A stretch of DNA of 37,097 nucleotides from Candidatus Limosilactobacillus merdigallinarum (GTDB lineage: Bacteria; Bacillota; Bacilli; Lactobacillales; Lactobacillaceae). Within the stretch, counting starts at the first letter, position 1. Each line of letters starts with the position of its first letter. The notes beneath the pieces were generated by a model, which saw nothing but the letters and a program-made list of their open reading frames with translations, was not told where the DNA came from and ran no database searches. The stretch is taken from NCBI GenBank assembly GCA_019114515.1, contig DXFH01000012.1, positions 1 through 37,097 on the forward strand. Reading direction: 5' to 3'. This document shows, in pieces, positions 1-31,117 of this stretch. The translations under genes and the position numbers were made by a program.

Positions 1-7
1 GGCTATA

Positions 8-64
8 ATGCCCTCTAAGTATACAGATGAAATAGAAAATTCATCTGATGTACTTGGAGGGCAT
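8..64 (+). promoter_or_regulatory. Hairpin at IS left end masking the orfA ribosome site
   Basis: Bases 8-22 pair with 50-64 (15 pairs, two of them G-U, 27-nt loop). The 3' arm contains the GGAGG ribosome site of orfA (56-60). A transcript that enters from outside the IS would hide this site, while one started inside would not. This would limit transposase made by read-through, as is known for several other insertion sequences. Confidence 0.5.
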
Positions 65-70
65 TTTTCT

Positions 71-784
71 ATGAGCCGTCAATCTAAATTTTCGATTGAA
101 GATAAGCTAAAAATAATTAATGAGATGAAGAACATTGACGCAGACATGATAGCTAAAAAATATAAAATTAGCAGATTTACTCTGCACACCTGGCAACTTA
201 GATACAAATACCAGGGAGCTGAAGGGTTACGCTCTACTCATCATAATCAACAATATTCCAAGAAGTTCAAGGTTGCTTTGGTTCAACAATATCAAGCATC
301 GAAGCATTCATTAGAGGAATTTGCCATCAAAAATGGGCTTAAATCTAAACATCAACTTTTAAACTGGATTCACCAGTATAATGAATTTAACTTAAAGGCA
401 TATACGCCAAGAAAGCGAGATTCAAAAATGCGTGGCAGAAAGACTAGTTTTGAAGAAAGACTCACGATTATTGAAGAATTGATTAAACATGACTTGAACT
501 ATAACTGGGCCGTTGACCACTATAATGTCAGTTACCAACAAGTATATGGTTGGTATCGGAAATACAAGCAAAGCGGTAATAATCCAGAATCACTACGTGA
601 TCGCCGAGGTAAAGCCAAACCTGAATCTCAATGGACGGAAGCTGATCGTTTAAGAGCAGAAAATCGACTACTTAAAGCCAAATTAAAGCAACAAGAAATG
701 GAGATTGCCTTCGCAAAAAAATTGGTCGAAATACGCAACCGGGAGGCGAAAAAGAAAACCAATACCAAGCAATTCAAGAACTAA
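71..784 (+). CDS. IS3-family transposase OrfA (DNA-binding subunit)
   Basis: OrfA of an IS3/IS150-type element, about 237 aa. It binds the element ends and, through frameshifting, supplies the N-terminus of the OrfAB transposase. Two helix-turn-helix regions are visible (IINEMKNIDADMIAKKYKIS near the N-terminus, and a second around WAVDHYNVSYQQVYGWYRKY), followed by a leucine-zipper-like helix (ENRLLKAKLKQQEMEIAFAKK). I place the start at ATG 71, 10 nt after GGAGG (56-60); an in-frame ATG at 8 lies in the terminal repeat and has no ribosome site. In-frame codons reach the heptamer A-AAA-AAA at 715-721, a good -1 slippery site from which the ribosome can enter the orfB frame. Confidence 0.85.
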   Translation: MSRQSKFSIEDKLKIINEMKNIDADMIAKKYKISRFTLHTWQLRYKYQGAEGLRSTHHNQQYSKKFKVALVQQYQASKHSLEEFAIKNGLKSKHQLLNWIHQYNEFNLKAYTPRKRDSKMRGRKTSFEERLTIIEELIKHDLNYNWAVDHYNVSYQQVYGWYRKYKQSGNNPESLRDRRGKAKPESQWTEADRLRAENRLLKAKLKQQEMEIAFAKKLVEIRNREAKKKTNTKQFKN

Positions 785-1632
785 GCAGAGAGCATGAATG
801 GCCAATCACACAGTTAACAAAACTGGCTGGTATTACACGTGATGCCTACTATAAGTGGCTTAAACGGGGAACATGCCCATATCGAAAAGAACAGGATCAA
901 CTATTAACGGCCATTCTCGAACTAGAGGAAGAGCATCACTGGACGCTGGGCTATTTAGGGATGACGACGCAGCTGCAGTCTGAAGGCAAATTAACTTTTC
1001 GTGCTGGCCTAAAGCGGGTCACCCGCTGTATGCGAGACAATCATATTAAAACCACTATTCGGAAGAAGAGGCATAATCGAATTAAACGACACGAAGAATA
1101 TGTCAGTGATAATTTATTAAACGAACAGTTTGATCGTCAGGCCAAGAACGAAGTATGGGTTACCGATACAACGGAAGTTGTATATGGTAATCAAACTGTG
1201 CACAAAGCACGTTTACACGTTGTTCTAGATTTATATAGACGTTATGCACTCAGCTACAATATTTCAGCAACAGAAACGACGCCAGCCGTGATTGAAACCT
1301 TTGAACGCGCGTTCAAAGGTGAACCAAATGTTCATCCAATGATTCATACAGATCGTGGAGCAGCCTATTGTTCAAGGGCTTTTACCAGCTATTTAGCTTC
1401 GAAGAACTGTGTACATAGCATGTCGCATCCAGGTCACCCTTGGGAAAATTCACCGATGGAACGCTGGTGGAATGACTTTAAGCTAATTTGGTTAGCTCGA
1501 CATCCACAACCAAAAACGCTGGCCGAACTTGAACGACTAGTTCAAGAGGGAATCGAATATTTCAATACTAAACGCGCATACGCAACAAGAAACGGCTTGA
1601 CTGCGGAACAATTCCGCAACCAAGCCGCCTAA
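676..1632 (+). CDS. IS3-family transposase OrfB (DDE catalytic domain), made by -1 frameshift
   Basis: Catalytic subunit of the IS3-type transposase (rve/RNase H fold). The -1 frame is open from 676, so OrfB continues directly from OrfA after slippage at A-AAA-AAA (715-721). The first ATG in this frame is at 961, but the codons before it are clearly coding (ITRDAYYKWLKRG, EEEHHWTLGYLG), so 961 is not the true beginning. The DDE triad is recognisable: D in VWVTDTTEVVY, D in MIHTDRGAAY, E in NSPMERWWNDFK. Only the frameshifted OrfAB fusion should be the active transposase. A second possible slip site, G-AAA-AAG at 748-754, sits just after GGGAGG. The ORF looks intact, so the IS may be active. 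Confidence 0.85.
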   Translation, partial: SQIKATRNGDCLRKKIGRNTQPGGEKENQYQAIQELSREHEWPITQLTKLAGITRDAYYKWLKRGTCPYRKEQDQLLTAILELEEEHHWTLGYLGMTTQLQSEGKLTFRAGLKRVTRCMRDNHIKTTIRKKRHNRIKRHEEYVSDNLLNEQFDRQAKNEVWVTDTTEVVYGNQTVHKARLHVVLDLYRRYALSYNISATETTPAVIETFERAFKGEPNVHPMIHTDRGAAYCSRAFTSYLASKNCVHSMSHPGHPWENSPMERWWNDFKLIWLARHPQPKTLAELERLVQEGIEYFNTKRAYATRNGLTAEQFRNQAA

Positions 1633-1723
1633 ACTAAATTTATTCTATTTTACCTGTATACTTGACGGAACATAGTGCCCCTCGTGATTGAGGTGCTTTT
1701 TATTTTGTTCTGATTTTATGCAC

Positions 1724-1750
1724 GTGACACGGTGTGACATGGATGTGACA
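1724..1750. repeat. Three helically phased GTGACA direct repeats
   Basis: GTGACA occurs at 1724, 1734 and 1745, i.e. spaced 10 and 11 bases so that all copies face the same side of the helix. This resembles a multi-site operator. No gene reads away from it on the plus strand, so its target may have been lost when the IS inserted. Confidence 0.35.
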
Positions 1751-1876
1751 AGTTCTTCTAACCGCCTCACGGTAATTTATTGAATATACACAGTTTATCA
1801 AAAAATATACGCATATTATACATTCTGATTTTAACTCTCAAAATGCTGATAAATCAACCGAAAACCTTACTCTCAC

Positions 1877-2734
1877 TTACCTTTGGGCCACGTGACCCGT
1901 TGCATAATCGATATTGATGTTGTTCTGGACATTCGGCACGAATACATTAAAAATTAACGAGCCGTCTTTGGACAAGGCTTCAATGTGAGCTCCTGCTGGA
2001 ACTAAGCAGTTACCATCATAGATGTCAGTAACCCGGTAACGAACTTGTTTACCTTGATCTAACGCTTTACGAACGAGACCTTCGTAATAATTCTGCCCAG
2101 TGGAGTCGCTAGAGCGCGCTTCATTAGCCCAAGCCGTCTGTGTAGCGATATTTTTAGGGTTGGATTCCGAAGCATCAAAGCCCTTAATACCACCAACTAA
2201 AGCATAGCCAAGCAAATGGCCACGATCATATGCGTGTGTCGGTCGTCCATTTAAATGGCTCGCCTGCAAGAAGCCGGCTGGTTTCCAATCACTAGCGCCA
2301 TTGCCGGTGGACTGGCGGTTTTGGTATTGTCGCGTTGTTTTATTCAACCAGGCATCGCCTCGCCAAGCGCGACCTTGCGAATCGACATGATTGACTGCAT
2401 AGGGTGCACTATTAATATCAGCGTTAAGTTGCGGCCGATTATTATTTAAAATGTATGCACCGTGACCATTCCACTCGATTTGCGCAGGCAATTGCTGGCG
2501 CACTGCTGGCGTAAGGGTTACCTGTGCCTGTGATTGCGTTGGTGTTGGTAAGCCATGACTAGTAGCGGATGTGCGCAAACGGCTACCACCCCAGGCGCGA
2601 TGAATTCGGGCACTGATACTTGGCGTTTGCCCATATTTGCTACCATCCGCTGGCCGTTGAAATGCATTGGCCACTGCAAAAAGAATGGCGAGAACCGCCA
2701 GCCAATGCCATAGTTTACGAAATTTACGTTTCAA
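1877..2734 (-). CDS. DNA/RNA non-specific endonuclease, secreted or membrane-anchored (EndA/NucA-like)
   Basis: A 285-aa nuclease of the DNA/RNA non-specific endonuclease family (beta-beta-alpha-metal fold). Residues 1-24 form a basic N-terminus followed by a hydrophobic helix (LAVLAILFAVANAF), so the enzyme is exported or anchored. The catalytic motif DRGHLLGYAL covers residues 170-179, with H173 the expected general base, and NPKNIATQTAWAN downstream provides the metal-binding Asn region. Family members include streptococcal EndA, which degrades the non-transforming strand during DNA uptake; others scavenge nucleotides or break down extracellular DNA. The start codon is TTG at 2734, preceded by AAAGGA; no ATG lies nearby. 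It is followed upstream by a surface-protein gene on the same strand, with a 75-base gap. Confidence 0.88.
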   Translation of the reverse strand: MKRKFRKLWHWLAVLAILFAVANAFQRPADGSKYGQTPSISARIHRAWGGSRLRTSATSHGLPTPTQSQAQVTLTPAVRQQLPAQIEWNGHGAYILNNNRPQLNADINSAPYAVNHVDSQGRAWRGDAWLNKTTRQYQNRQSTGNGASDWKPAGFLQASHLNGRPTHAYDRGHLLGYALVGGIKGFDASESNPKNIATQTAWANEARSSDSTGQNYYEGLVRKALDQGKQVRYRVTDIYDGNCLVPAGAHIEALSKDGSLIFNVFVPNVQNNINIDYATGHVAQR

Positions 2735-2809
2735 TTTTGAGGTTCCTTTCAGCTATTTATGCTTATTTTACACCTCTCAATTGAAAATGAACATCCGTTC
2801 GTTTAGCTA

Positions 2810-4564
2810 TTATTTCTGCTTATTAAGACGGGTCAGCAAAACGGCGGCCAATCCCATTAAGAAACCAGATACAGTCAATAGTAAGTTCCCCTGATGGCCC
2901 GTTTGTGGTAAATGATCATTATGACCCTTTTTCTGGGATTCGACCGGTTGGCTTAAACGACTAATTTCATTATCCAAAAATGGATCAGCACCTTTCTTTG
3001 ATTGTTTGGTTCCTGTCGAAAGATCACTCAATGGCATTTTCATAGGTTCTTCTTCGGTAAATGATTCCTCATCCATTCCTGCTGGATTGCCAGAATGTCC
3101 TCCTTCCTCATCCTTAACATTACTTACATCGCCATCGTGATGCGGCTGCTGTTCATCATTTTCACGGTGCTCATTCTTCTTGGAACTTTCACCTTTTGGA
3201 TGACTAGTTGTTGGTTGGGAAGGATTATTCTTGCTCTGCGAGTGCTGTCCTTTAGGCGTCGTCTTCTCTGAATCACTATGACTATCCTTGTGTTTATCCG
3301 GATCTTTAGTCGGTTTCTGTGGCTTTACATCGTGGTCATGCTGGTCTTTATCGGCAGGTGATCCTTTATCCGGTAACCCTTCATCCGCTGTACCTGCTCC
3401 TGACGATTGCTGTTTATCAGCATCTGGATTGCTTGGCTGGTCTGTCTTGGAATGATCTTGATCGTGTGCCTTCTGATCATCTTGCGGAGCCTCTGGATCT
3501 TTCTTGTGATCATCATCCGTCGTCACCGTGTCGCCCTTTTCATGATCATCTTGGTTAGCTGGCTGTTCCGGTTGCTTTGGAGATTCGGTTGTACCGTCGT
3601 CTTTTTGATCATCTTTCTTTGGCTGATCTTGGTCTGACTTGGAACCACCTTCTTCACTGCTAGGATCAGCTGGTTTAGTCGGTTCCTGCTTGTCCGAATC
3701 CACTGGCTTAGTTGGATCTTTCTTGTCCGGATCAGCTGGTTTAGATGGTTCCTGCTTACCAGGGTCTACCAGTTTATCTTGTTCATGCTCACCTTGCGTC
3801 TGATCGCCTGGTGATGGTAAGCCTTTATCACCACTCGTATCATGCTGATGGTCATCAGTCTTCTTGCCTGAATCCTCAGGTTTGCTGGTATCCTTTCCCG
3901 GTTTATCTGTCGAAGGATCCGTCGCAGGTGGGATTGTCGTCTTATCATTATGTTCAACTAGAATGGTCTGCGGCAGCACATTACGAAACTTATCCCGGTT
4001 AAAAGTAACCGTTGCCGATTGATCCTCGGCGAGCGAGAGATCATCAGCTAATGGTACTTTTACCTTAAATGTCTTGTCGTCGGGGCTACCATAAAAGTAC
4101 TGCGTTTGCAGGATATTACCTTTTTGGTCTTTGACATGCACTACTGCTGGATCAACTAACCCGGTATAATCCCCTTCCGGCAGGTACTTTAAGTGGTAAA
4201 CCACTTCTGGAACATCTGGGTCCAAGAATGGGGGCATCGTAATATATGTTGCCGGATGATAATCACCGATATTGTCCCATTGCATTGTCGCTAATTTGTC
4301 CGCTTTAATAACGTGCAAACGGCCATCCTTACCTTTTTGCCACCGAATGGTCACTTTCTTATCTTGGTGAACCTTCCCATCATCCGAGCGGAACTGGTAG
4401 ATGATCCGCGTCGTCTTTTCATAGTGCTCACCGGGTTCCGTTTTTTTTACCACTGTTGCGTCAGTGCTATTACTAGCAGCATGCACCGCTAATGGTCCTG
4501 CCACCGTCAATAATAAAGTTAACTGAGCAATTAATGCTCCGTGCCAAATGCGTTGTTTTGTCAT
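2810..4564 (-). CDS. LPXTG-anchored surface protein with MucBP-like N-terminal region
   Basis: A roughly 584-aa sortase-anchored cell-wall protein. It has a signal peptide ending near AVHAAS, then a globular part of about 170 residues that begins TTRIIYQFRSDDGKVHQDKK. This resembles mucin-binding (MucBP/Mub) repeats of lactobacilli. A very hydrophilic stalk of about 330 residues follows, rich in K, D, P, Q and H, with imperfect repeats such as KPADPDKKDPTKPVDSDKQ. The C-terminus is LPQTG, a hydrophobic segment and a RLNKQK tail, the standard sortase A signal. Start: ATG 4564 has GGAG at 9 nt; the upstream in-frame TTG at 4570 is only 3 nt from it and is unlikely. Probable role is adhesion to mucus or the cell surface. 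The ligand cannot be read from sequence. Confidence 0.85.
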   Translation of the reverse strand: MTKQRIWHGALIAQLTLLLTVAGPLAVHAASNSTDATVVKKTEPGEHYEKTTRIIYQFRSDDGKVHQDKKVTIRWQKGKDGRLHVIKADKLATMQWDNIGDYHPATYITMPPFLDPDVPEVVYHLKYLPEGDYTGLVDPAVVHVKDQKGNILQTQYFYGSPDDKTFKVKVPLADDLSLAEDQSATVTFNRDKFRNVLPQTILVEHNDKTTIPPATDPSTDKPGKDTSKPEDSGKKTDDHQHDTSGDKGLPSPGDQTQGEHEQDKLVDPGKQEPSKPADPDKKDPTKPVDSDKQEPTKPADPSSEEGGSKSDQDQPKKDDQKDDGTTESPKQPEQPANQDDHEKGDTVTTDDDHKKDPEAPQDDQKAHDQDHSKTDQPSNPDADKQQSSGAGTADEGLPDKGSPADKDQHDHDVKPQKPTKDPDKHKDSHSDSEKTTPKGQHSQSKNNPSQPTTSHPKGESSKKNEHRENDEQQPHHDGDVSNVKDEEGGHSGNPAGMDEESFTEEEPMKMPLSDLSTGTKQSKKGADPFLDNEISRLSQPVESQKKGHNDHLPQTGHQGNLLLTVSGFLMGLAAVLLTRLNKQK

Positions 4565-4716
4565 CCTCAAATACTCCTTTTTTCTTGTCTGCTATCTAAG
4601 GACGGCAAAACAGTAAAATGATATTTTATTTTTGGCAGAAATCTTAAATTGACCTAGACTAAAGGCGTAAAGATCATTCGGTGACTAATTGTTTCGTTTA
4701 AAAGGAGTTGATATTA

Positions 4717-4983
4717 ATGAATAAAGTTTTCATGTTGGGCTACTACCAGGGCGTAATTGAAACCGCTCCTAAAATTTTGTCCGCAGCCAAAACCAATGAA
4801 TTGGCCATTGCAATGGCGATTCAGCATTTGCGGCATGCCGGTGTCGACAGTGCCACTATCAACCATTTTCTCGTCGAAGATGCCCATGCCGATATGCGTC
4901 AGGTTTCCCACTGCATTACCCTCAATGCTGACGAATTGGAGACTCTGCAAGCCAAAATTTTGCGAATGGGCCATCTTGCCTAA
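4717..4983 (+). CDS. Small hypothetical protein (88 aa)
   Basis: Short cytoplasmic protein without a membrane segment or recognised domain. It reads MNKVFMLGYYQG at the start, has an Ala-rich amphipathic helix (ELAIAMAIQHLRHAG), and ends with a second helix (ADELETLQAKILRMGHLA). ATG 4717 is chosen because AAGGAG (4701-4706) lies 10 nt upstream; an in-frame TTG at 4708 is too close. The gene is transcribed divergently from the LPXTG gene and ends in the bidirectional hairpin at 5054-5098. Function unknown. Confidence 0.65.
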   Translation: MNKVFMLGYYQGVIETAPKILSAAKTNELAIAMAIQHLRHAGVDSATINHFLVEDAHADMRQVSHCITLNADELETLQAKILRMGHLA

Positions 4984-5053
4984 TCATCAATATTGCGGTT
5001 AGGAAAAAATTGGCACAGAAAAAGCGCTGGGGCTTAAATCTGTTATATCGAAC

Positions 5054-5098
5054 AAAAGGCCTCAAGCATCCGGGATTCCGAACGCTTAAAGCCTTTTT
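5054..5098. terminator. Bidirectional hairpin terminator, repeat-family copy 1
   Basis: Inverted repeat AAAAGGC...GCCTTTTT with an inner CAAGC/GCTT stem, between convergent genes (end of the 4717 gene and end of dxs). A-run on the left and T-run on the right allow termination on both strands. The loop and inner stem match the hairpin at 9054-9097 closely. Confidence 0.75.
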
Positions 5099-5156
5099 GT
5101 GATTGCGGAAGCTCGAAAACAAAGTCGTAACGACGTCTGTCTTGCTCCCTTACTTT

Positions 5157-6929
5157 TTAAATTTGGTGAACGACCTTTTCAATGTCATCACAGATGAGTT
5201 CTGGAGTTAAGTGGTACCATTCCGCTAAAACATCCGTTGGTACATTATCCGCAAATTCACGCGGAGCACCAAAGTTCAATACCTGCATATCGGTTGGCCC
5301 ATAGTAGCGGTCAATGGTTTCACTAAAGCCGCCGCTTAAATTGCCATCTTCCAAGGTCACCACAATATTGTGGTCTTCTTGTAAGTGGTGCAGGTCACGG
5401 GCATCAATATTGGTAACCGACTTTGGGTTAATCAAAGTAGCGTCAATATTGAGTTCCTTCTTCAACTGCTCGCATACTTGCTTTCCCAGTTCAAAGAAGT
5501 CACCGACTGCCATGATTGCGACTTCACTGCCCTGGTGGACAATATCGTAATCAATTGAGCTGTAGTCGTCCTGCGTCGCTGCGCGGTGAACAACCTTCTT
5601 TTCTGGTTGGCGAATAAAGACTGGGCTTTCATCCTGATTAATGGCCCAGTGCAGCATTGAAAGCATTTCTTCTTCGCTCGTTGGCGCCAAGTATTCAATG
5701 TTTGGCAAAGAACTGATGTAGGAAATATCGAAGGTCCCCTGGTGGGTAGCAGATTCGCTGCTAATCGTGCCACCTTGGACGATCATCACGATTGGAGCAT
5801 CATTCAAGGCGACATCATGAATCAATTGATCATAAGCCCGCTGCAGGAAACTGCTGTTTTCAAAGACCACTGGACGGACACCATGCTGGGCCATCCCGAC
5901 AGCCGAGGTAACCGCCATCTGTTCCGCAATGCCGACATCAAAGTAGCGGTCCGGATACTTAGCCTGGAACCGTTTCAAATTAAACATATTAGGAATTGCT
6001 GCCGTAATCGCTGCGACTGGCTGACCGGCCTCAATTTCTTTAAATAGCTGGTCAATCACAGGGTCGCTGTAGTTTTCTTTTGGTGCCGGGGTAGTACTCT
6101 TGCCCGTCTTCGGGTCGAATGGTCCGCGCCAGTGGTACAGCATCTTATTGTCCACTGCCGGCTGGTAGCCCTTGCCCTTCAAGGTGTGCACATGCAGGAC
6201 GATTGGGTGATCAATGTCCTTAACTTCTTTGAAGACTTTGATCATCTCTTCTAGGTTATTGCCATCGGGAACATAACGATAGTCGAGGCCCATGAACTTG
6301 AAGATATTGTTCGGGGACTTGCCGTCAGTCTCACGCAGTTCCTTTAAGCCCTTGTACAAGCCACCCTGATTTTCATCAATGGACATGCCATTGTCGTTTA
6401 CCACAATAATCAGGTTCGACTTTAATTGGCCGGCATTATTTAGTCCTTCATAAGCCAGACCACCGCTTAAAGAACCGTCCCCAATGACGGCAACGATGTT
6501 CTCATCCTTCTTGTGGCGCATATCCCGCGCACGGGCCATCCCCACTGCCAAGGCAATGGACGTCGACGTATGGCCAATAGCAAAGAAGTCGTCATCACTT
6601 TCTTCTGGCGAAGTAAAGCCGGAGACATCTTCATAGTGGTCGGGATCCAAGAATCCTTGTTTGCGTCCCGTCAGCATTTTGTGGGCATAGCACTGGTGGG
6701 AAACGTCCCAAATAATCTTATCGTGAGGAGAATTAAAGACGTAATGGTAAGCGATGGTCATTTCGACCACGCCTAGGTTTGGCCCAACGTGACCACCAAT
6801 GGCACTGTCACGCTCAATAATCAATTGTCGCATCTCTGAACCAAGCTGCTTAAACTGATCCAGCGTCATTCCCTTAATGTCCGCTGGCTCTTCCACTTGA
6901 TTCAGCAAATAATCTGGATGCCGATTCAT
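5157..6929 (-). CDS. dxs: 1-deoxy-D-xylulose-5-phosphate synthase
   Basis: Thiamine-diphosphate enzyme that condenses pyruvate with glyceraldehyde 3-phosphate to DXP. Of 590 aa, a little shorter than typical Dxs (about 620). Visible signatures: substrate His in GGHVGPNLG (about residue 47), KIIWDVSHQCYAHKMLTGR, the ThDP motif GDGSLSGG (150-157) with NDNGMSID, and the catalytic Glu in YFDVGIAEQ, followed by the transketolase C-terminal domain. Start ATG 6929 has AAGGAG at 8 nt. No other MEP-pathway or thiamine gene is nearby, and lactobacilli normally make isoprenoids by the mevalonate route. DXP may therefore feed thiamine or pyridoxal synthesis, or an unrelated sugar-phosphate reaction. It is monocistronic, with a terminator downstream. 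Confidence 0.88.
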   Translation of the reverse strand: MNRHPDYLLNQVEEPADIKGMTLDQFKQLGSEMRQLIIERDSAIGGHVGPNLGVVEMTIAYHYVFNSPHDKIIWDVSHQCYAHKMLTGRKQGFLDPDHYEDVSGFTSPEESDDDFFAIGHTSTSIALAVGMARARDMRHKKDENIVAVIGDGSLSGGLAYEGLNNAGQLKSNLIIVVNDNGMSIDENQGGLYKGLKELRETDGKSPNNIFKFMGLDYRYVPDGNNLEEMIKVFKEVKDIDHPIVLHVHTLKGKGYQPAVDNKMLYHWRGPFDPKTGKSTTPAPKENYSDPVIDQLFKEIEAGQPVAAITAAIPNMFNLKRFQAKYPDRYFDVGIAEQMAVTSAVGMAQHGVRPVVFENSSFLQRAYDQLIHDVALNDAPIVMIVQGGTISSESATHQGTFDISYISSLPNIEYLAPTSEEEMLSMLHWAINQDESPVFIRQPEKKVVHRAATQDDYSSIDYDIVHQGSEVAIMAVGDFFELGKQVCEQLKKELNIDATLINPKSVTNIDARDLHHLQEDHNIVVTLEDGNLSGGFSETIDRYYGPTDMQVLNFGAPREFADNVPTDVLAEWYHLTPELICDDIEKVVHQI

Positions 6930-7079: not shown

Positions 7080-8309
7080 ATGACCGTTGATCAAAATACC
7101 GCCGTCGAAAAATTATCGCCGCTTAAGCCACTGACTAATGAACAAGCTCAATTGGTAAACCGGATTCTTGCTTTCACCAGTCAGCACCTAGAAGCCGGCA
7201 ATACACCTGCCATTTTCACCATTTATGGCGATGCCGGAACTGGTAAAAGCGTCGTCTTATCCCACTTATTTAACCAGCTGCAGACGGCCGCCCGGACGGA
7301 TCAAACCAGTCCGTTTTATGGTACCGACAATTGTTTCTTAGTTAACCACCCTGAAATATTGAAGGTCTACAAAGAGATTGCCGGGCATTACCCGCACCTG
7401 CTCAAGAAAGACTATGAACGGCCGACTTCGTTTATTAATCAGCTAGATAAAAGAGACGGCCACGTCGATGTCGTCGTAATTGATGAAGCCCACCTCCTCC
7501 TGTCTAAACCGGATCATTACAATAATTTCTACCATGAAAACCAATTAGCCGAAGTGATCAAGCGCGCAAAGGTCGTTATTTTAGTCTTTGACCAATACCA
7601 AGTGCTACGCATGAAGAGCCTGTGGACGCCCGATCGTTTGACTAAGCTGACTAACCAATATCCGCATGATGATTACCATTTAAAGCACCAATTTCGGATG
7701 ACCGCGAGCGATGATTTAGTAGCGTGGATGAACCAATTAACTGATGGCACAGTCACTGCTTTACCGAAAAATGCCCGTGATCATTATGATTTTCGCGTTT
7801 TTGACGACGCCGAAGCAATGCGAAAAGCGATCGTCCAGCGGGATCATGAAGTCGGATTGTCTCGCATCCTCTCCACTTCTGGCTACCCGTCCACGCTGGA
7901 TGGTGGCAAACACTATATCAAGGAAGGCCGTTTCAAAATGCCGTGGGATCAGTACAACTATACGTCAACACCCTGGGCGGAAATTCCCCAAACCATTAAT
8001 GAAGTCGGCTCCATTTACACCTGTCAGGGATTTGACCTTAACTATGCGGGTATTATTATCGGCCCGATCATTAGCCAGGCAAATGACAGCAACCAACTAC
8101 TGGTCCACCTCGATCGCTACACCGACGTGGAATCCTTTAAACGCCGCAAAGACCTCACTGATCCTAAAGAGATTAAACAACTAGAGGAACGTATGATTAT
8201 GAATGCGCTCAATGTGATTTTAAAGCGCGGCGTGCGCGGTACTTACCTCTATGCCCATGATCCCCGCTTGCGACAGACCTTGATTTCGATGTATGATCAA
8301 ATCAAGTAA
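7080..8309 (+). CDS. DUF2075 / Schlafen-type P-loop ATPase (helicase-like)
   Basis: A 409-aa P-loop NTPase of the DUF2075 family, related to superfamily 1 helicase domains. Walker A is GDAGTGKS at residues 50-57 and Walker B is VVVIDEAH near residue 135. A sensor-like VFDQYQ and the helicase-like EVGSIYTCQGFDLNY follow. No DNA-binding or nuclease fusion is visible. Members of this family are common in Firmicutes; the role is unproven, with nucleic-acid remodelling or phage-related functions suggested. The start has GAAGGGAG nine nt upstream. The gene lies divergent from dxs and is followed 18 bases later by the VTT-domain gene, so the two are probably cotranscribed. Confidence 0.8.
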   Translation: MTVDQNTAVEKLSPLKPLTNEQAQLVNRILAFTSQHLEAGNTPAIFTIYGDAGTGKSVVLSHLFNQLQTAARTDQTSPFYGTDNCFLVNHPEILKVYKEIAGHYPHLLKKDYERPTSFINQLDKRDGHVDVVVIDEAHLLLSKPDHYNNFYHENQLAEVIKRAKVVILVFDQYQVLRMKSLWTPDRLTKLTNQYPHDDYHLKHQFRMTASDDLVAWMNQLTDGTVTALPKNARDHYDFRVFDDAEAMRKAIVQRDHEVGLSRILSTSGYPSTLDGGKHYIKEGRFKMPWDQYNYTSTPWAEIPQTINEVGSIYTCQGFDLNYAGIIIGPIISQANDSNQLLVHLDRYTDVESFKRRKDLTDPKEIKQLEERMIMNALNVILKRGVRGTYLYAHDPRLRQTLISMYDQIK

Positions 8310-17830: not shown

Positions 17831-17881
17831 TTGTCTTAGTTATCCCCTTAGAATAAACGACGTTCCTTTTATATCAACTAA

Positions 17882-19816
17882 TTAACTAGCCTTTTTCTTC
17901 TTCTGGCAGACATTTGGCAGACCGTCTATTTTGTTTCCATCTAAATGTTGGTTACCATTAAATGTAACTTTTGATTTTTCTGCAGGAGAAATATCCATGC
18001 TTCTTTCCATCTTAGAGGCTAACTCAATGTCATTGTTACTAAACATATGCGCATAGTATTTCAGTGTCGTCATAGGTGTTTTATGCCCTAAACGGTGACT
18101 AACCGTTAAAACATCCGCACCTAGTTCAGCAATAAGATAAGAAGCATTAGAATGCCTCAATCCTCTACCGTCAACTCTAGGAACACCAGCAAGTTTGGAA
18201 TAGCGTTTAAGCCATTTGCTTAAGGTTGATTTATTCAATGGACAATTGTCATAGGACAAGACAAAATCATGAACACTATACTTAAGCTGTTCTTTTTTCC
18301 AATCTTCTAAAACTCTAACAAGTTCATCATCAAGAGTTAAAGTTCTCCGACTTGAATCATTTTTCAAATATGGCACTAGCTCATATTCCATCTTATTCTT
18401 ATAGTGGAGGTTATTAATAAATCTTACCTTACCATTGTTTAAATCAACGTCAGACCATCTTAATGCACCTGCTTCAGAGACTCTGCATCCCATCCTATAA
18501 AAGAACAAGAACGTTACATAAATTAAACGCTCATAAAAACTAGAAACAGATACAGACGAAAGAACTTTTTCAAATTCTTCCTTCGTCCAATACTTAGCCG
18601 TAGCCTTGCCTTTAGGCACAGATTTCGTCTTCAGAGAAGGATTTGCAGGAATTAAATTAATTTCTACTGCGTAATCCAAGCTTTGCCTAAAGGCCGTATA
18701 CACTACACTAGCATAACTTTGAGAGTACTTAGTTTCTGTTAACAGCCATTGATTAACCACGTAACCGATTAGTTTTTGACCTAATTCTTCTTCATCTTTA
18801 TCTTTTAAATCTGAGAGAATTGCATGTGCCGCTTTATGCTTAAACTCACCTTCTATGCGCATCCAACTAGAGCTCTCTTTTGCTAAATCAAAATGCGGTG
18901 CGTTCGGTTTATCTTGCTCGATCTTTTTGTCATACACTCTTAAGAAGTTATCACTTGAACGGGCACCACAGGTAATACCAGTGATTACTTTGTTTGCTCC
19001 GTAAAACTTCTGAGTCTTCTCAGATTTTTCACGCTTCAAGGAATCTAAGATCATAATTTCTTTTTGTTGAAGTTGACTGTGCAACTGGTCAACACTTAAA
19101 TTGCCATCAATTACATCAATCGCAACATCAACTCTGGTAAATCTAGCCTTCTTTTGAACCATGTATTTAACAAAACTATTAAAAGTTGAACTATAGCCTC
19201 TAAGTTTCCCTAAGTTCTGCCAAGCCTTAAATCCCGTCGCACTAAAATACAACAACAAACCTTGAGACTTCTTCTTCTCGTTCCACATGAACTTGATTTG
19301 TCCATTGTAGTAGCTGACAGCTTCTGAATAATAATTCAACGCCCTAGCCTTGTCAGATCCGCCAAAGATCTTAGAAAGTCGTAAGTCTTTAGCGACCTGC
19401 AATGCAGTATTTAATCCACCCATTTTATTAACGGGAAAGTTAACACTGACCTGATCTACACTAACAAAGTAATCACTGGCCGTTTTACCGAAGTCTCCGG
19501 AGAAGTGCTCGTATCGCATATGCATATTTTTAGTCAAGATACGCAAGGTACGAGCCGCTTGGTTAGGTGTAATAGCTGGATGAAAGGCTTTCAAACTTGC
19601 TAAGTCTGAGCCTTTGCCATCAATGATATATGCTTTAGCGCACATGCCTATTTTCTGGTTGTCTAACCGACTTTTAGCACTAATCGTTGAGAGCAAAACA
19701 TCCTCAAGAGTATTGGTTTTCGACGATCCAGTAACGCCAGATACCAGCATGTGTGGGCTTGACTTCCAGTCAACAGTACAATTTGGTGCCAGTAGTACCT
19801 TAGAAATCGCTCTCAT
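17882..19816 (-). CDS. Chimeric FtsK/TcpA fragment - Rep_trans initiator - tyrosine recombinase
   Basis: One uninterrupted 644-aa frame with three parts. Residues 1-116 match the start of an FtsK/TcpA DNA-translocase motor: DWKSSPHMLVSG leads into Walker A GVTGSSKT (27-34), but Walker B and the rest of the motor are absent. Residues about 117-357 match Rep_trans initiators/relaxases (MobT, NicK, Tn916 Orf20): VSVDQVSVNFPV, FTRVDVAIDVIDGN and FLRVYDKKIE. Residues about 362-600 are a tyrosine recombinase core-binding end and catalytic domain: R445 in GCRVSEAG, K485, R554, H578 and Y588 in TTLKYYAHM; the usual His of HxxR is Arg551. The integrase N-terminal arm-binding domain is missing. ATG 19816 has AAAGGA eight nt upstream. 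Two in-frame deletions in an ICE are the simplest origin. Whether the product works is unknown. Confidence 0.8.
   Translation of the reverse strand: MRAISKVLLAPNCTVDWKSSPHMLVSGVTGSSKTNTLEDVLLSTISAKSRLDNQKIGMCAKAYIIDGKGSDLASLKAFHPAITPNQAARTLRILTKNMHMRYEHFSGDFGKTASDYFVSVDQVSVNFPVNKMGGLNTALQVAKDLRLSKIFGGSDKARALNYYSEAVSYYNGQIKFMWNEKKKSQGLLLYFSATGFKAWQNLGKLRGYSSTFNSFVKYMVQKKARFTRVDVAIDVIDGNLSVDQLHSQLQQKEIMILDSLKREKSEKTQKFYGANKVITGITCGARSSDNFLRVYDKKIEQDKPNAPHFDLAKESSSWMRIEGEFKHKAAHAILSDLKDKDEEELGQKLIGYVVNQWLLTETKYSQSYASVVYTAFRQSLDYAVEINLIPANPSLKTKSVPKGKATAKYWTKEEFEKVLSSVSVSSFYERLIYVTFLFFYRMGCRVSEAGALRWSDVDLNNGKVRFINNLHYKNKMEYELVPYLKNDSSRRTLTLDDELVRVLEDWKKEQLKYSVHDFVLSYDNCPLNKSTLSKWLKRYSKLAGVPRVDGRGLRHSNASYLIAELGADVLTVSHRLGHKTPMTTLKYYAHMFSNNDIELASKMERSMDISPAEKSKVTFNGNQHLDGNKIDGLPNVCQKKKKAS
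17904..17922 (+). repeat. Element-end direct repeat, integrase side
   Basis: TGGCAGACATTTGGCAGAC: two TGGCAGAC units three bases apart. It matches 23280-23298 at 18 of 19 bases in the same orientation and codes for the C-terminal LPNVCQ part of the recombinase. Likely integrase arm-binding site. Confidence 0.65.
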
Positions 19817-20288
19817 TAATATTTCCTTTTGATCTAACCAAATTAATCTTATATACAGCTATACCGTTAGCTACACTTTCCAAATTTGCGGAATGATGAA
19901 AGGCTGCTCCTACCTCATTAGCCAGTTCCTGCAAATGACGAGTATTACTTACTCCGTTTGCATCAATGGTTAGTAGATAGTAATCGGTATTACTCATATC
20001 GAGTGTGTAATTAACTGAACTACGGTAGCGCCCAATGGCAAAATTATCACGATTATCAGCTAACTTAGCAGAGTTAGTTAACCGGTCAAGTGCCTTAATT
20101 TGATCAGCATAAAAAATTTTATTCAGTTCATCCAACAACCACTTATATTGACTAATTACAGTAGCAAGGATTAATAATACGCCTGATTGAAAAACAAATC
20201 CTAAAACTATGCCAACAATTACGCCCATAACCATCAAAGCAGCGTTAAAGTGATAGTGGTCGTTAGGATTGTACTTAATTGTGCGCAT
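19800..20288 (-). CDS. Membrane protein of the element, two hydrophobic segments (162 aa)
   Basis: The N-terminus MRTIKYNPNDHYHFNAALMVMGVIVGIVLGF runs into two closely spaced hydrophobic segments, then a soluble part of about 110 residues. In Tn916-type elements the TcpA/FtsK coupling protein has just such an N-terminal membrane portion before the motor domain. Here that portion is a separate gene directly preceding the motor fragment, with 17 bases of overlap. Start ATG 20288 has GGAGG five nt upstream; the longer frame from 20321 has none. It overlaps the preceding gene by 14 bases, so translation is coupled. I infer a conjugation or membrane-anchoring role. Confidence 0.65.
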   Translation of the reverse strand: MRTIKYNPNDHYHFNAALMVMGVIVGIVLGFVFQSGVLLILATVISQYKWLLDELNKIFYADQIKALDRLTNSAKLADNRDNFAIGRYRSSVNYTLDMSNTDYYLLTIDANGVSNTRHLQELANEVGAAFHHSANLESVANGIAVYKINLVRSKGNINESDF

Positions 20289-20739
20289 GATTACCTCCAA
20301 CAATATGCATAATTTGCTCATTAGAAAGATTCAAGACTCTTACGCCTGTAGCATTTAAGCCTTCACGACCGTTAAATGCCCAATGTGACAGATTGTCAAA
20401 GGCAACGATGATCATCTTGGAATTAAACATGATTTCGACATTGTCCTCTTCTTTAAGAATACACGTTTGCCCTTTTACTTTGATTTCAAATTCAGTTGAT
20501 AAAGGCAATAGCTTACTATTCAATGACTGAACTCGATAACATGCACGTACGGTGTTATCACCGTTACTATCCTTAACATCTTCATTTGTACCAGAAAGCA
20601 CCTTAAAGATACTACCAGTAGCTAACTTCAATGGCTTTTGAAGTACATTTGCAATTGGTGTAGCCTTGGGCAACACTGAAGCTGCAAAAGAAGATTCCTT
20701 AATAGTTTGAACTGATTGATTGTTATTAGTTTGAGCCAT
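20275..20739 (-). CDS. Element accessory protein, possibly YdcP/DUF961-like (154 aa)
   Basis: First gene of the element's minus-strand operon. A 154-aa soluble protein with an Asn/Gln-rich start (MAQTNNNQSVQTIKE) and a beta-rich region (STEFEIKVKGQTCILKEEDNVEIMF). Position before the TcpA-like gene and general character resemble the small DUF961 proteins (Orf22/23 of Tn916, YdcP of ICEBs1), but similarity is weak and I cannot confirm the family. ATG 20739 has a strong AGGAGG eight nt upstream. It is preceded by a 375-base leader with tandem hairpins. Confidence 0.6.
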   Translation of the reverse strand: MAQTNNNQSVQTIKESSFAASVLPKATPIANVLQKPLKLATGSIFKVLSGTNEDVKDSNGDNTVRACYRVQSLNSKLLPLSTEFEIKVKGQTCILKEEDNVEIMFNSKMIIVAFDNLSHWAFNGREGLNATGVRVLNLSNEQIMHIVGGNHAHN

Positions 20740-20800
20740 ATTTATAACCTCCTAAATTGAGGCAGCGGGATACGGCATCCCTTTAACTAAAATTGACGAC

Positions 20801-20893
20801 AAAAAAAGCGGATTACCAATGTTAAAGCCTTCTCTAACACCTTGATAATCCGCGATCACTAAAAGAAGCACGTGTTTGTAAACACATGCTTCT
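20801..20893 (-). terminator. Tandem hairpins in leader: candidate attenuator
   Basis: Reading the minus strand, hairpin A (20893-20864) is a 14-bp stem, AGAAGCATGTGTTT against AAACACGTGCTTCT. Its only imperfection is a U-G pair in this strand (C-A in the other), which supports a minus-strand RNA. Hairpin B pairs GCGGATTA with TAATCCGC (20853-20846 and 20815-20808) and is followed by seven T. Together they form an intrinsic terminator 60 bases before the first operon gene's start codon. Confidence 0.65.
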
Positions 20894-21121
20894 CGTCATT
20901 ATCTATTCAGTTTTCCATCAAATGGGCAGACTGCTAGTGCTGGAGAAGTTAAAAAGTTAAAAATTCCTTTAAAACTTAAAAATAACTAAACCACGTTACT
21001 ACCAGTATCCGCTAGCGTGGCGCCCACGGTGGTACCGCTACATTTTCTATAAAAAATCAGTCATAGACCTGTAGCAACGGTAACATTGTTCTACGACTTA
21101 TCCAACATCTCTCATAATGAC

Positions 21122-21162
21122 ACTATACACACCATGTTGGCGCAATGTAATAGTACTTACAT
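21122..21162 (-). promoter_or_regulatory. Promoter of the element operon with overlapping palindrome
   Basis: On the minus strand: TTACAT (21150-21145), 17-nt spacer, TATAGT (21127-21122). The -35 is one arm of ATGTAA-TAGTAC-TTACAT (21145-21162), a likely repressor site. It directs transcription into the leader and the operon ending in the chimeric ORF. Confidence 0.5.
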
Positions 21163-21292
21163 CACTATGAGTAATAAACAAATATACCTTTAAAAATAAA
21201 ATAAAACCTTTAAATACTTATAGTTGATTTATACCATGTCTTAAGTTTGCCATCAATTTCAAAATTTTTTCTTTAGAATTTCTTAATATTTT

Positions 21293-21694
21293 TTATTTCA
21301 AATCGGCTACACGCTTTTTGATTTCATCACGAACTTGACGAAATATTACCATTTTCTGTTCAGGTGTTCCTTGTGCTTGCGCCGGATCAATCAAAGGCCA
21401 ATGAAGATTTTTCGTTTGAGGCGACAAGGCTGGACAACGATCTCTTGCATCCCCACACAAGGTAACCACAAGATCAGCTGAATTCAAATAATCTGGATCA
21501 ATTAACTTAGATTTTTGCTGACTAATATCAACGCCATCTTCTGCCATAGCCTTAACCGCATATGGATTTAACCCATGTTTTTCAATACCTGCACTTTTCA
21601 CTTCATATTTATCCTTTAACAGGATCTTGCCATAGCCCTCTGCCATCTGACTACGACAGGAATTACCAGTACATAAAAAGTATATTTTCTTCAT
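21293..21694 (-). CDS. arsC: Arsenate reductase, thioredoxin-coupled (LMW-PTP fold)
   Basis: Reduces arsenate to arsenite in the cytoplasm so that Acr3 can export it. The 133-aa protein has the phosphatase-like loop C8-TGNSC-R14 and the redox pair C80 and C87 in [10 protein letters not shown], the arrangement of the S. aureus/B. subtilis thioredoxin-linked enzymes. ATG 21694 overlaps the acr3 stop by one base (TAATG), giving translational coupling. Last gene of arsR-acr3-arsC. The longer frame beginning at 21721 lies inside acr3 and is not needed. No clear terminator follows, so read-through into the element operon is possible. Confidence 0.92.
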
Positions 21695-22731
21695 TACTTG
21701 TAGTATCTCCTCTTTATCCAAAGTGCCACATCTACCAATAGGATCATAACCGGTACTTCTACCATAGGACCGATTACGGCCGCAAATGCTTCGCTTGAGT
21801 TTAAGCCAAAAATACCAACGGCTACAGCCACTGCAAGTTCAAAGTTATTGCTTGAAGCAGTAAAGGCTTGTGTTACGGAGATTGAATAGCTTGTGTGTGT
21901 CTTTTTCGCAATCCAAAAAGTAATTAGGAACATTAATACGAAGTATAGTAATAAAGGAACAGCTACCCTAACTGCATCAAGCGGCAATTGAACAACTTTA
22001 ACACCCTTAACCGAAAACATTAGTACGATAGTAAAAAGCAAAGCCCAGGTGGTTATTCTGCTGATTTTAGGAACATACTTAGCTTCAAACCAATCTTTGC
22101 CCTTGGATTTAATAATCAAGTAGCGTGAACCGATTCCTAAAATAAACGGAATACCCAAGTAAATAAAGACGGTTTTAGCAATTTCGCCCATCGTAACGTT
22201 AAGTGCATGAGTTTGAATACCGAAGAATTTAGGCAATACACTAATAAAAACATATGCGTAAACGGAATAAAAGACAATTTGGAAAATAGAATTTAATGCG
22301 ACCAAACCGGCTGCATAATCATTATTCCCTTGTGCCAACTCATTCCATACAATTACCATGGCAATACATCTTGCCAATCCAATCATGATTAAACCAACCA
22401 TGTAGTCAGGATAATCATGAAGGAAAATAACGGCTAAAGCGAACATCAAAAGTGGACCAACAATCCAGTTTTGAATCAAAGAAAAAACAAGCTCTTTCTT
22501 ATCTCTAAAAACATCCCCCATTTTATCGTAATTAACCTTTGTCAAAGGTGGATACAGCATTAAGATCAAACCAATCGCAATAGGTATTGAAGTAGTACCC
22601 ACTGACCAACTGTTAATTAACTTAGGGAATGATGGAAAGACAAAACTAATCACAATTCCTAAAGCCATAGCTAGAAATACCCATAAAGTCATATAGCGAT
22701 CCATGAAGGATAAGCCTTTTGACGTATTCAT
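21694..22731 (-). CDS. acr3: Arsenite efflux transporter Acr3
   Basis: A 345-aa membrane protein with ten hydrophobic segments, of the Acr3 (BART superfamily) type rather than ArsB. It exports arsenite using the proton motive force. [19 protein letters not shown] at the N-terminus and [22 protein letters not shown] in helix 4 are family hallmarks; the Cys in the latter is the conserved, functionally required residue. [20 protein letters not shown] is the matching motif in helix 9. Start ATG 22731 has GAGGGAG upstream. It has its own promoter with an ArsR operator, in addition to read-through from arsR. Confidence 0.93.
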
Positions 22732-22752
22732 AATAATAAAAAACTCCCTCTA

Positions 22753-22782
22753 TATATAGATAGTCATCTATGTATTGTTCAA
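22753..22782 (-). promoter_or_regulatory. acr3 promoter with ArsR operator
   Basis: Minus strand: TTGAAC (22782-22777), 18-nt spacer, TATATA (22758-22753). The operator CATAGATGACTATCTATAT (22772-22754) fills the spacer and -10. It matches the arsR operator at 23121-23139 except for four central bases. Confidence 0.75.
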
Positions 22783-22804
22783 AATAAAAGGATTAACAAA
22801 CTTT

Positions 22805-23104
22805 TTAAGCATCCTTACAAATACAATTCTCAGAATTTGATAGTACTTCAGTTAATCCATTAATAATTACTGTTGATTTTTCTGGGTTTAATGAATAATA
22901 GTGCCATTTCCCCCTCTTCTGCACTAAGATCAATTCCTTATCTTCCAATACTTTCATATGATGTGAAAGAGTAGGCTGTGTAAAATTAAAATGATCAAGA
23001 ATATCACAAGCACACATCTCTCCGCATGAAAGTAAGTTTAAGATCTTAAGTCGGTTAGGCTCTGCAACGACTTTTAATAAGTTTGCTAATTCTTGGTAAT
23101 CCAT
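22805..23104 (-). CDS. arsR: ArsR-type arsenite-responsive repressor
   Basis: A 99-aa SmtB/ArsR winged-helix repressor. FTQPTLSHHMKVLEDKELI is the recognition helix region. The arsenite-binding cysteines are C27, C31 and C33 in SCGEMCACD, and there is an extra CIC pair at 94-96 near the C-terminus. Binding of As(III) releases it from DNA. It heads the arsR-acr3-arsC operon and is preceded by a copy of the operator that also lies before acr3. The ribosome site AAGGAGAG is seven or so bases before ATG 23104. Confidence 0.92.
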   Translation of the reverse strand: MDYQELANLLKVVAEPNRLKILNLLSCGEMCACDILDHFNFTQPTLSHHMKVLEDKELILVQKRGKWHYYSLNPEKSTVIINGLTEVLSNSENCICKDA

Positions 23105-29533: not shown

Positions 29534-31117
29534 CTAGTCTTCAAGGATAACCGCTTCAGCCATCAAAATCTCCGAATAGAGGTGGGTCACAATCGGCATG
29601 AACCGCTCTTCTTGCTGCGAAATAGTACTGAGGTATTCTCGTTCCTCATGAAAAGCTAAGCGGTACGCCATTTCCAGCGTGTTGGTTTGGGCCGCATTCA
29701 TATCCGGCTGGCGTAATGTGATACGAAATGCATAAATGAAATGCAGCAGGGTCGTCTGCCCCATTTGGGAGCGCAGGTCAAAAATGATTTGTCTGCGCAG
29801 TTCATCAGGGAGGTAAATTTGATTAATCCGATCAATTGCATTGCGAACCATTGCTTTGCGGAAGTAATTGATTTTCTTTTGTGTTTCGCGGGTATCGGGT
29901 TCCTGCTTCAAAATAAAGCGGAACACAATCGTTGGTACTAACAGGCTCAGGATAATTAATACCGCTTCGGCCATTAACACCATTTCGAAATCAGTCCGTT
30001 TAACCGCCGTTTCAGCTACCATGTAGGTCAATGCGAAGGTGACCGCCCCATGGACACCACCTAAAGAAAAGACCCACGCTTCTTGCCAAGAAATTTTCAT
30101 GACGAAGCGAATATATAGCAAGCGGACAATCACGTTGCTCAAATACAAGATTAACCCGATCAAAAGCCATTCTTTCGGTTTGTTCAACACGACATTATGA
30201 CGGGTAATCCGAACCAACACAATGCCTAACATAACAAACACAATCCCGTTTAAAATCTCCGTCAATAATTCGGTCACCACATTGGAACTGATGATCAGCC
30301 GGGGATTCGTTAACCGGCTACGTTCCGCTTCGGCGTTATGCAACAGTCCCGCACACACCACCGCAATAATCCCGGAGACATGGACGGCTTCAGCCAGGTA
30401 GTAAATCACAAATGGCGTGGCAATAAAAGCAACCAATGCGGGCGTTCCGTTATAAGAGGAATTATTGCGCATGTTATTCATATGCAAGATGGATTGTCTA
30501 ATCAGGATTGTCAACAGGGCAAGCAAGAAGCCCACGATTACTCCCCCTATTGCTGAATAAAGAAAGTTGCCTAGCGTTTGTGGAAAGTTGATGTAACCAT
30601 TGACGTACCACAAAATGGCCATGTTCAGCAAAATGATTCCGGAAGCGTCGTTAAAAAGCGACTCCATCTTAAGATAGGTCCGTTCTTTTCTCGGAATGAT
30701 CAAGCCATCCGAAACGGCGTCCGAGGCCGTCGCGTCCGTCGGGGTACTGATGGCGGCCAAAATAAAGGCTAACGGCATTTGCGCAATGCCAAACGCGTGA
30801 GTCGCCAAACCCGCCACAACGCAGCATGCCAAGACCATCACTACCGTCAGTGACAAGATCACCTTCCACTTTTTAGCTACCAAGTAGAAGCGGGTTTCCA
30901 TGCCCTCATAAAAAAGCAATGGGGCAACGACGCTTCCCATGAATAATTCGGAATGAAAACTTGCTACCGTATGGTTAAACATCTGAATCAAAGCAATGAT
31001 GATGCCCAAAAACACATTGATATAGTTAATGGGAATTGCGTGCAACAGGTGACGCTGCAGCAAAATACCTATTACTGCCGCTGTAATGACGACGCCAGTT
31101 GAGAGAACCAAATCCAT
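29534..31117 (-). CDS. CPA1-family Na+/H+ antiporter (NhaP/YjcE-like)
   Basis: A 527-aa monovalent cation:proton antiporter with about 12 membrane segments and a C-terminal cytoplasmic tail of about 120 residues. The ion-binding Asp is in AAISTPTDATASDAV and the second conserved acidic/Asn pair in MESLFNDASGIILLN. These match the CPA1 motifs TDPVA and ES-x-x-ND. GGVHGAVTFALTYMVAE corresponds to the conserved Arg/Gly-rich later helix. It would maintain pH and Na+ homeostasis. Start ATG 31117 has GAGGAG eight nt upstream. Monocistronic and convergent with the DUF2252 pseudogene. Confidence 0.85.
   Translation of the reverse strand: MDLVLSTGVVITAAVIGILLQRHLLHAIPINYINVFLGIIIALIQMFNHTVASFHSELFMGSVVAPLLFYEGMETRFYLVAKKWKVILSLTVVMVLACCVVAGLATHAFGIAQMPLAFILAAISTPTDATASDAVSDGLIIPRKERTYLKMESLFNDASGIILLNMAILWYVNGYINFPQTLGNFLYSAIGGVIVGFLLALLTILIRQSILHMNNMRNNSSYNGTPALVAFIATPFVIYYLAEAVHVSGIIAVVCAGLLHNAEAERSRLTNPRLIISSNVVTELLTEILNGIVFVMLGIVLVRITRHNVVLNKPKEWLLIGLILYLSNVIVRLLYIRFVMKISWQEAWVFSLGGVHGAVTFALTYMVAETAVKRTDFEMVLMAEAVLIILSLLVPTIVFRFILKQEPDTRETQKKINYFRKAMVRNAIDRINQIYLPDELRRQIIFDLRSQMGQTTLLHFIYAFRITLRQPDMNAAQTNTLEMAYRLAFHEEREYLSTISQQEERFMPIVTHLYSEILMAEAVILED

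Follow-up and report, generated by a model that had tools for sequence, protein, structure and literature searches.

Does an open reading frame that carries parts of three mobile-element proteins encode a new kind of enzyme, or is it the remnant of three genes? The question is raised by a frame in the window, the whole stretch of 37,097 nucleotides analyzed here, from a draft genome of Candidatus Limosilactobacillus merdigallinarum (1,564,634 bases, 32 contigs, completeness 92%). The original prediction of a single uninterrupted 644-codon frame with three mobile-element segments was confirmed by the list of open reading frames and by Pfam. The ORF at 17882-19816 has an ATG start and zero internal stops, and Pfam models matched residues 13-107 (FtsK_SpoIIIE, E 9e-6, 25.7 bits versus a cut-off of 24), 225-350 (Rep_trans, E 8.9e-16) and 411-591 (Phage_integrase, E 2.5e-21). 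The fused frame is thus real in the sequence, and it is probably a product of decay, not a new kind of enzyme. The predicted division into three domains held, but the recombinase segment begins inside the core-binding domain, at about residue 357, and not just before the catalytic domain. The frame and its segments are as follows.

17882..19816, minus strand: 644-aa fused open frame (ORF list and Pfam)
19469..19816, minus strand: TcpA N-terminal segment, residues 1-116, with Walker A (alignment to relatives)
18746..19468, minus strand: Rep_trans/MobT catalytic domain, residues 117-357 (Pfam, motif residues and alignment)
17882..18745, minus strand: tyrosine recombinase segment, residues 358-644, comprising the end of the core-binding domain and the catalytic domain (Pfam and alignment)

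When named genomes were scanned with the Rep alignment, 13 loci were obtained. Elements with the same gene set were found in L074 (a MAG contig), L075 (Companilactobacillus nuruki) and L076 (Lactobacillus colini); since tcpA is frame-broken in L074, where it also has an in-frame stop, in L076 and in L077 (L. melliventris), 'same set' refers to gene content. L077 has frame breaks, and an int match is absent within its 16.7 kb. The order in the relatives is a 154-aa-like gene, a membrane gene, tcpA, rep/mobT, an xis-like gene and int. In L075 a 168-aa gene, a 158-aa gene, tcpA (282 aa), rep/mobT (379), a 117-aa gene and int (416) lie on one strand, the 117-aa gene carrying DUF3173 and being xis-like by position. 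The window keeps the order of the intact relatives (154 aa, 173 aa, TcpA, Rep, Int) with xis missing. The three functions had been expected to be separate genes with others in between; separate they are, but they lie close together, and the only gene standing between any of them is a small xis-like one, located between rep and int. Identity of L074 to the window is 80% for the 154-aa gene, 70% for the 173-aa gene, 74% for TcpA, 70% for Rep and 76% for Int, and the window parts align to relatives without gaps as far as the junctions. Among 397 genomes of the family, counting that of the window, the Rep third had matches in 48 (E 0.001) and the TcpA third in 4 (E 1e-8); one genome, that of C. 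nuruki (G347, L075), was close in both. The L074 contig (NZ_CALNCS010000233.1) is assigned to a MAG with the name Alkalibaculum bacchi and is possibly misbinned, the element being otherwise found here in Lactobacillaceae.

We also compared the element with known systems. In the part of Coluzzi et al. 2017 (PMC5357655) drawn on here, Class_IME_1 consists of streptococcal IMEs with a MobT (PF02486) relaxase, TcpA and a tyrosine integrase. The window's relatives resemble this class, as described there, in gene types and in the compact order tcpA, relaxase, excisionase, integrase. The window differs from it in that its genes are fused and cut and xis is gone, and the hosts are Lactobacillaceae. 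On that portion of the source, the relatives fit the streptococcal type of IME and the window is a collapsed member.

A separate observation concerns tcpA of the relatives, in which a GC-rich hairpin is inserted; its length is 23, 24, 23 and 22 nt in L074 (from 2072), L075 (about 7497-7520), L076 (from 7485) and L077 (from 7498), respectively. The insert has Val codons at its two ends and lies at the same codon in each, between ..RQASIY and V(V/I/M)VGIQRP; the L076 and L077 sequences recur in L116/L125 and L114/L126. It breaks the tcpA frame in three of four distinct copies, and the frame remains open downstream, where it is conserved (four pairs, with pN 0.20-0.25 and pS 0.75-0.87). Values of dN/dS for L074 on the upstream side of the hairpin were set aside as invalid, since MAFFT drops the stop sign. 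The hairpin looks like a candidate translational-bypass element, of which phage T4 gene 60 provides an example; L. colini (L076), whose other element genes are open, is the best case.

Comparison with the relatives located the two joins. Relative to L074, junction 1 lacks about 641 bases (from the end of tcpA to the start of rep) and junction 2 about 1,079 (the end of rep, xis and the start of int); relative to L075 the numbers are 647 and 1,077, and these counts are differences from two relatives, not ancestral lengths. The positions originally given, near 19470 and at 18735-18750, agree with alignments to the relatives that have all the genes. At junction 1, TcpA ..FGKTASDY (identical in L077) is joined to Rep YFVSVDQ (MTEYFVTVDQ in L074) on a tyrosine codon common to tcpA and rep. 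At junction 2, Rep ..GYVVNQW is joined to Int ..WLLTETKYSQ:

18737..18748, minus strand: junction 2, the WLLT codons (357-360), common to the relatives' rep and int (alignment and repeat comparison)

In L074 the corresponding sequences are RWLLTDSN in Rep and TWLLTNSG in Int, with 14 of 20 bases matching, a number equalled by 198 of the 1,407,130 rep-int pairs. The repeat has 13 matches in L075 (reached by 1,041 of 1,381,072 pairs) and 12 in L076 (4,364 of 1,403,518). Measured against all pairs, therefore, it is good but not outstanding in each relative. Because WLLT stands in the same phase in rep and int, a deletion between the copies stays in frame without selection.

The three segments have fared differently, and only the Rep catalytic domain appears whole. 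TcpA of the window keeps Walker A and has lost Walker B (residues from 123 on in L075); a coupling ATPase with both Walker A and B is absent from the window, residues 1-116 being its sole remainder. The Rep_trans/MobT relaxase domain scores above the PF02486 cut-off and its catalytic part is complete, with the C-terminal part lost. Its residues D121, D230, Y295, K297, E300 and E322 were matched by eye to the motif residues of the MobT relaxase RelSt3 as given in the consulted part of PMC6499999. The window domain thus resembles RelSt3, on that portion of the paper, in its PF02486 assignment and, by motif, in its catalytic Tyr, Lys, Glu and acidic residues. It differs in that Rep of the relatives begins at the catalytic domain, no N-terminal HTH being seen by eye, and the NCBIfam MobT score of the window is 31.7 versus a cut-off of 600. 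In L037 (1396-2566) and L038 (1094-2298) the Rep/MobT C-terminal part is a gene of its own adjoining the catalytic part (BLASTP E 4e-14 and 2e-14 for the pairs), and therefore junction 2 coincides with the natural end of the Rep catalytic domain. The window's own integrase is incomplete. Measured against the 416 aa of L075 Int, it is short of some 128 residues, comprising the N-terminus and half of the core-binding domain (the SAM-like match covers residues 86-167 of L075), while R445, K485, R554, H578 and Y587/Y588 of the catalytic domain are present by motif. An AlphaFold model of the fusion (12 sequences) gave a mean pLDDT of 62.6 and a pTM of 0.44, with values mostly of 70-90 for residues 117-357 and below 50 for residues 358-397. 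With Foldseek, the Rep domain matched 4CIJ (E 1.4e-10), and the recombinase matched 3NKH, XerA and Tn1549 Int; it differs from such Tn1549/Xer-type integrases in lacking the N-terminal domain and one half of the core-binding domain. Folding of the Rep catalytic domain may still be possible.

We believe that the ORF very probably arose by decay of a small integrative mobilizable element (tcpA - rep/mobT - xis - int), through two deletions that were each in frame by chance. A first deletion at a short matching sequence would have removed the second half of tcpA and the start of rep, and a second one, likewise at a short matching sequence, would have removed the end of rep, xis and the start of int. 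The element would thereby have been left without a coupling ATPase, an excisionase or a complete integrase, and what remains would no longer excise or transfer by itself. That two deletions fused three genes in frame had been proposed from the window, and the relatives with separate genes support it. Selection for the fusion, suggested at the same time, is not borne out: the junctions lie at short matching sequences, TcpA and Int are cut inside domains, and no second example was seen in the genomes and loci searched. Two in-frame events have a 1-in-9 chance, and this case was chosen because it is in frame.

Changes found in the window only and in L074 only were counted at sites alike in L075 and L076. 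The numbers were 0 versus 2 for TcpA (44 sites; the L074 piece contains a stop sign), 11 versus 6 for Rep (126 sites) and 19 versus 6 for Int (204 sites), with 4 versus 3 (57 sites) and 5 versus 2 (48 sites) for the upstream genes. The lack of window-only changes in TcpA suggests that the event is recent, while the excess in Int may reflect early decay or the history of the L074 Int, which is 84% identical to that of L075. Some findings count against decay: the frame is open over 644 codons, junction 2 falls at the end of the Rep catalytic domain, and the conserved TcpA sites show zero window-only changes.

The surroundings of the fused frame are as follows.

19800..20321, minus strand: 173-aa upstream element gene, membrane-protein-like by eye (ORF list and relatives)
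20275..20739, minus strand: 154-aa first gene of the element (ORF list and relatives)
20740..21291, minus strand: conserved element leader, containing GGTACCACCGTGGGCGCCACGCTAGCGG at 21009-21036 (alignment to relatives)
21293..23104, minus strand: arsC-, SBF/ACR3- and arsR-like genes, the first two overlapping (ORF list and Pfam)
17840..17855, minus strand: att-like end behind int, TATTCTAAGGGGATAA (comparison with relatives)

At E 0.01 the 154-aa and 173-aa genes matched none of the Pfam or NCBIfam models. The 550-nt leader is conserved (76% over 592 bases in L074, 75% over 501 bases in L077) and holds two terminator-like hairpins; a search of Rfam yielded no RNA family for it, tRNAs being the sole matches in the window. 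The leader with GGTACCACCGTGGGCGCCACGCTAGCGG is, from its sequence, a candidate origin of transfer or regulatory leader. It starts directly after the arsC-like stop, as the L077 leader does after an Eco57I-type methylase/restriction-like gene, so the arsenic-type genes probably occupy the cargo place, where relatives carry restriction-modification-like genes. The L076 and L077 elements have differing methylase/restriction-like genes in this place. These two elements (788-5731 and 2-5642, respectively) come after the 3' end of a gene that resembles GMP synthase (guaA by eye). Insertion at guaA was considered for the window and rejected: guaA does not adjoin its element, and the 527-aa ORF at 29534-31117 is a Na/H exchanger. 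A partner for the att-like end at 17840-17855 was looked for and not found, and an empty site sought through the neighbours copY and a 262-aa ORF (18 genomes each) gave no common layout across the element.

Junction 1 carries a feature of its own.

19463..19479, unstranded: junction 1, a 17-nt inverted-repeat arm across the TcpA/Rep join (repeat search)
18978..18994, unstranded: second inverted-repeat arm, within the Rep segment, coding for NKVITG (repeat search)

The 17-nt repeat is perfect, with its arms 468 nt apart. Each arm's only match is the other arm, both in the window at up to three mismatches and in the genome at up to one. Shuffles gave a mean of 0.11 arm matches, with two or more in 1 of 100, and a separated exact inverted match of 17 arose in 1 of 1,000 shuffles of 4.5 kb (self-palindromes excluded). 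The halves of the arm at the join look native, CCAGTGATTA occurring in L074 TcpA and TACTTT at the start of L077 Rep. Simple slippage does not explain this repeat, which counts against decay by two deletions as the best explanation. The repeat hints at a template-guided deletion, in which the inner arm in rep may have bridged both ends on single-stranded DNA, or at a chimera, since a chimera formed in amplification would leave an identical trace. If the joins of the contig were artefacts of assembly or amplification, the organism would have complete genes. We consider this improbable, even though an inverted repeat exactly at junction 1 is the expected trace of an amplification template switch and the genome is a draft with 32 contigs and 92% completeness. 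Against it, two independent joins would have had to keep the same gene order and both fall in frame, no other copy of full tcpA, of rep or of this int was found in the genome (other matches to the fused protein are weak), and a repeat of 17 nt is shorter than the usual assembly words.

A selected, working fusion, in which a single-chain nickase-recombinase serves both replication and excision of the element, is more doubtful still and can be given very little weight. It is favoured by the open frame, by the Rep motif and Int catalytic residues present by motif, and by a Rep domain that is well modelled and matches 4CIJ. The halved core-binding domain of Int, the cut of TcpA between Walker A and B, the loss of xis and the single example argue against it. 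The original prediction had proposed looking for the same fusion in other genomes. No second one appeared among the matches listed in 49 other genomes of the genus, in 396 other genomes of the family (where, the window's own apart, open frames matching Rep reached at most 487 aa), in the 13 named loci or in viral contigs searched by short patterns, and at 80% cover it was found in 0 of 1,287 matching phage records and 0 of 322 matching plasmid records. Two weak alignments across junction 2 were rejected, L086 being a 371-aa Rep alone and G035 a 401-aa integrase alone. In the literature searched, no title or abstract described a relaxase-integrase fusion. A working single-chain initiator-recombinase is thus unlikely; an active fusion would represent a new layout among mobile-element enzymes. 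Its fullest form, in which one expressed chain would nick its own leader through the Rep domain and act on att-like sites through the tethered recombinase domain, the first deletion having been guided by the join's inverted copy in rep, is highly improbable; if true, two deletions would have created a minimal enzyme of excision and replication.

Decay by two deletions remains the reading that we prefer. It means that the closely packed genes of a small mobilizable element can collapse into a single open frame, which automatic annotation would call a three-domain protein, and the first join possibly records a deletion guided by an inverted repeat.
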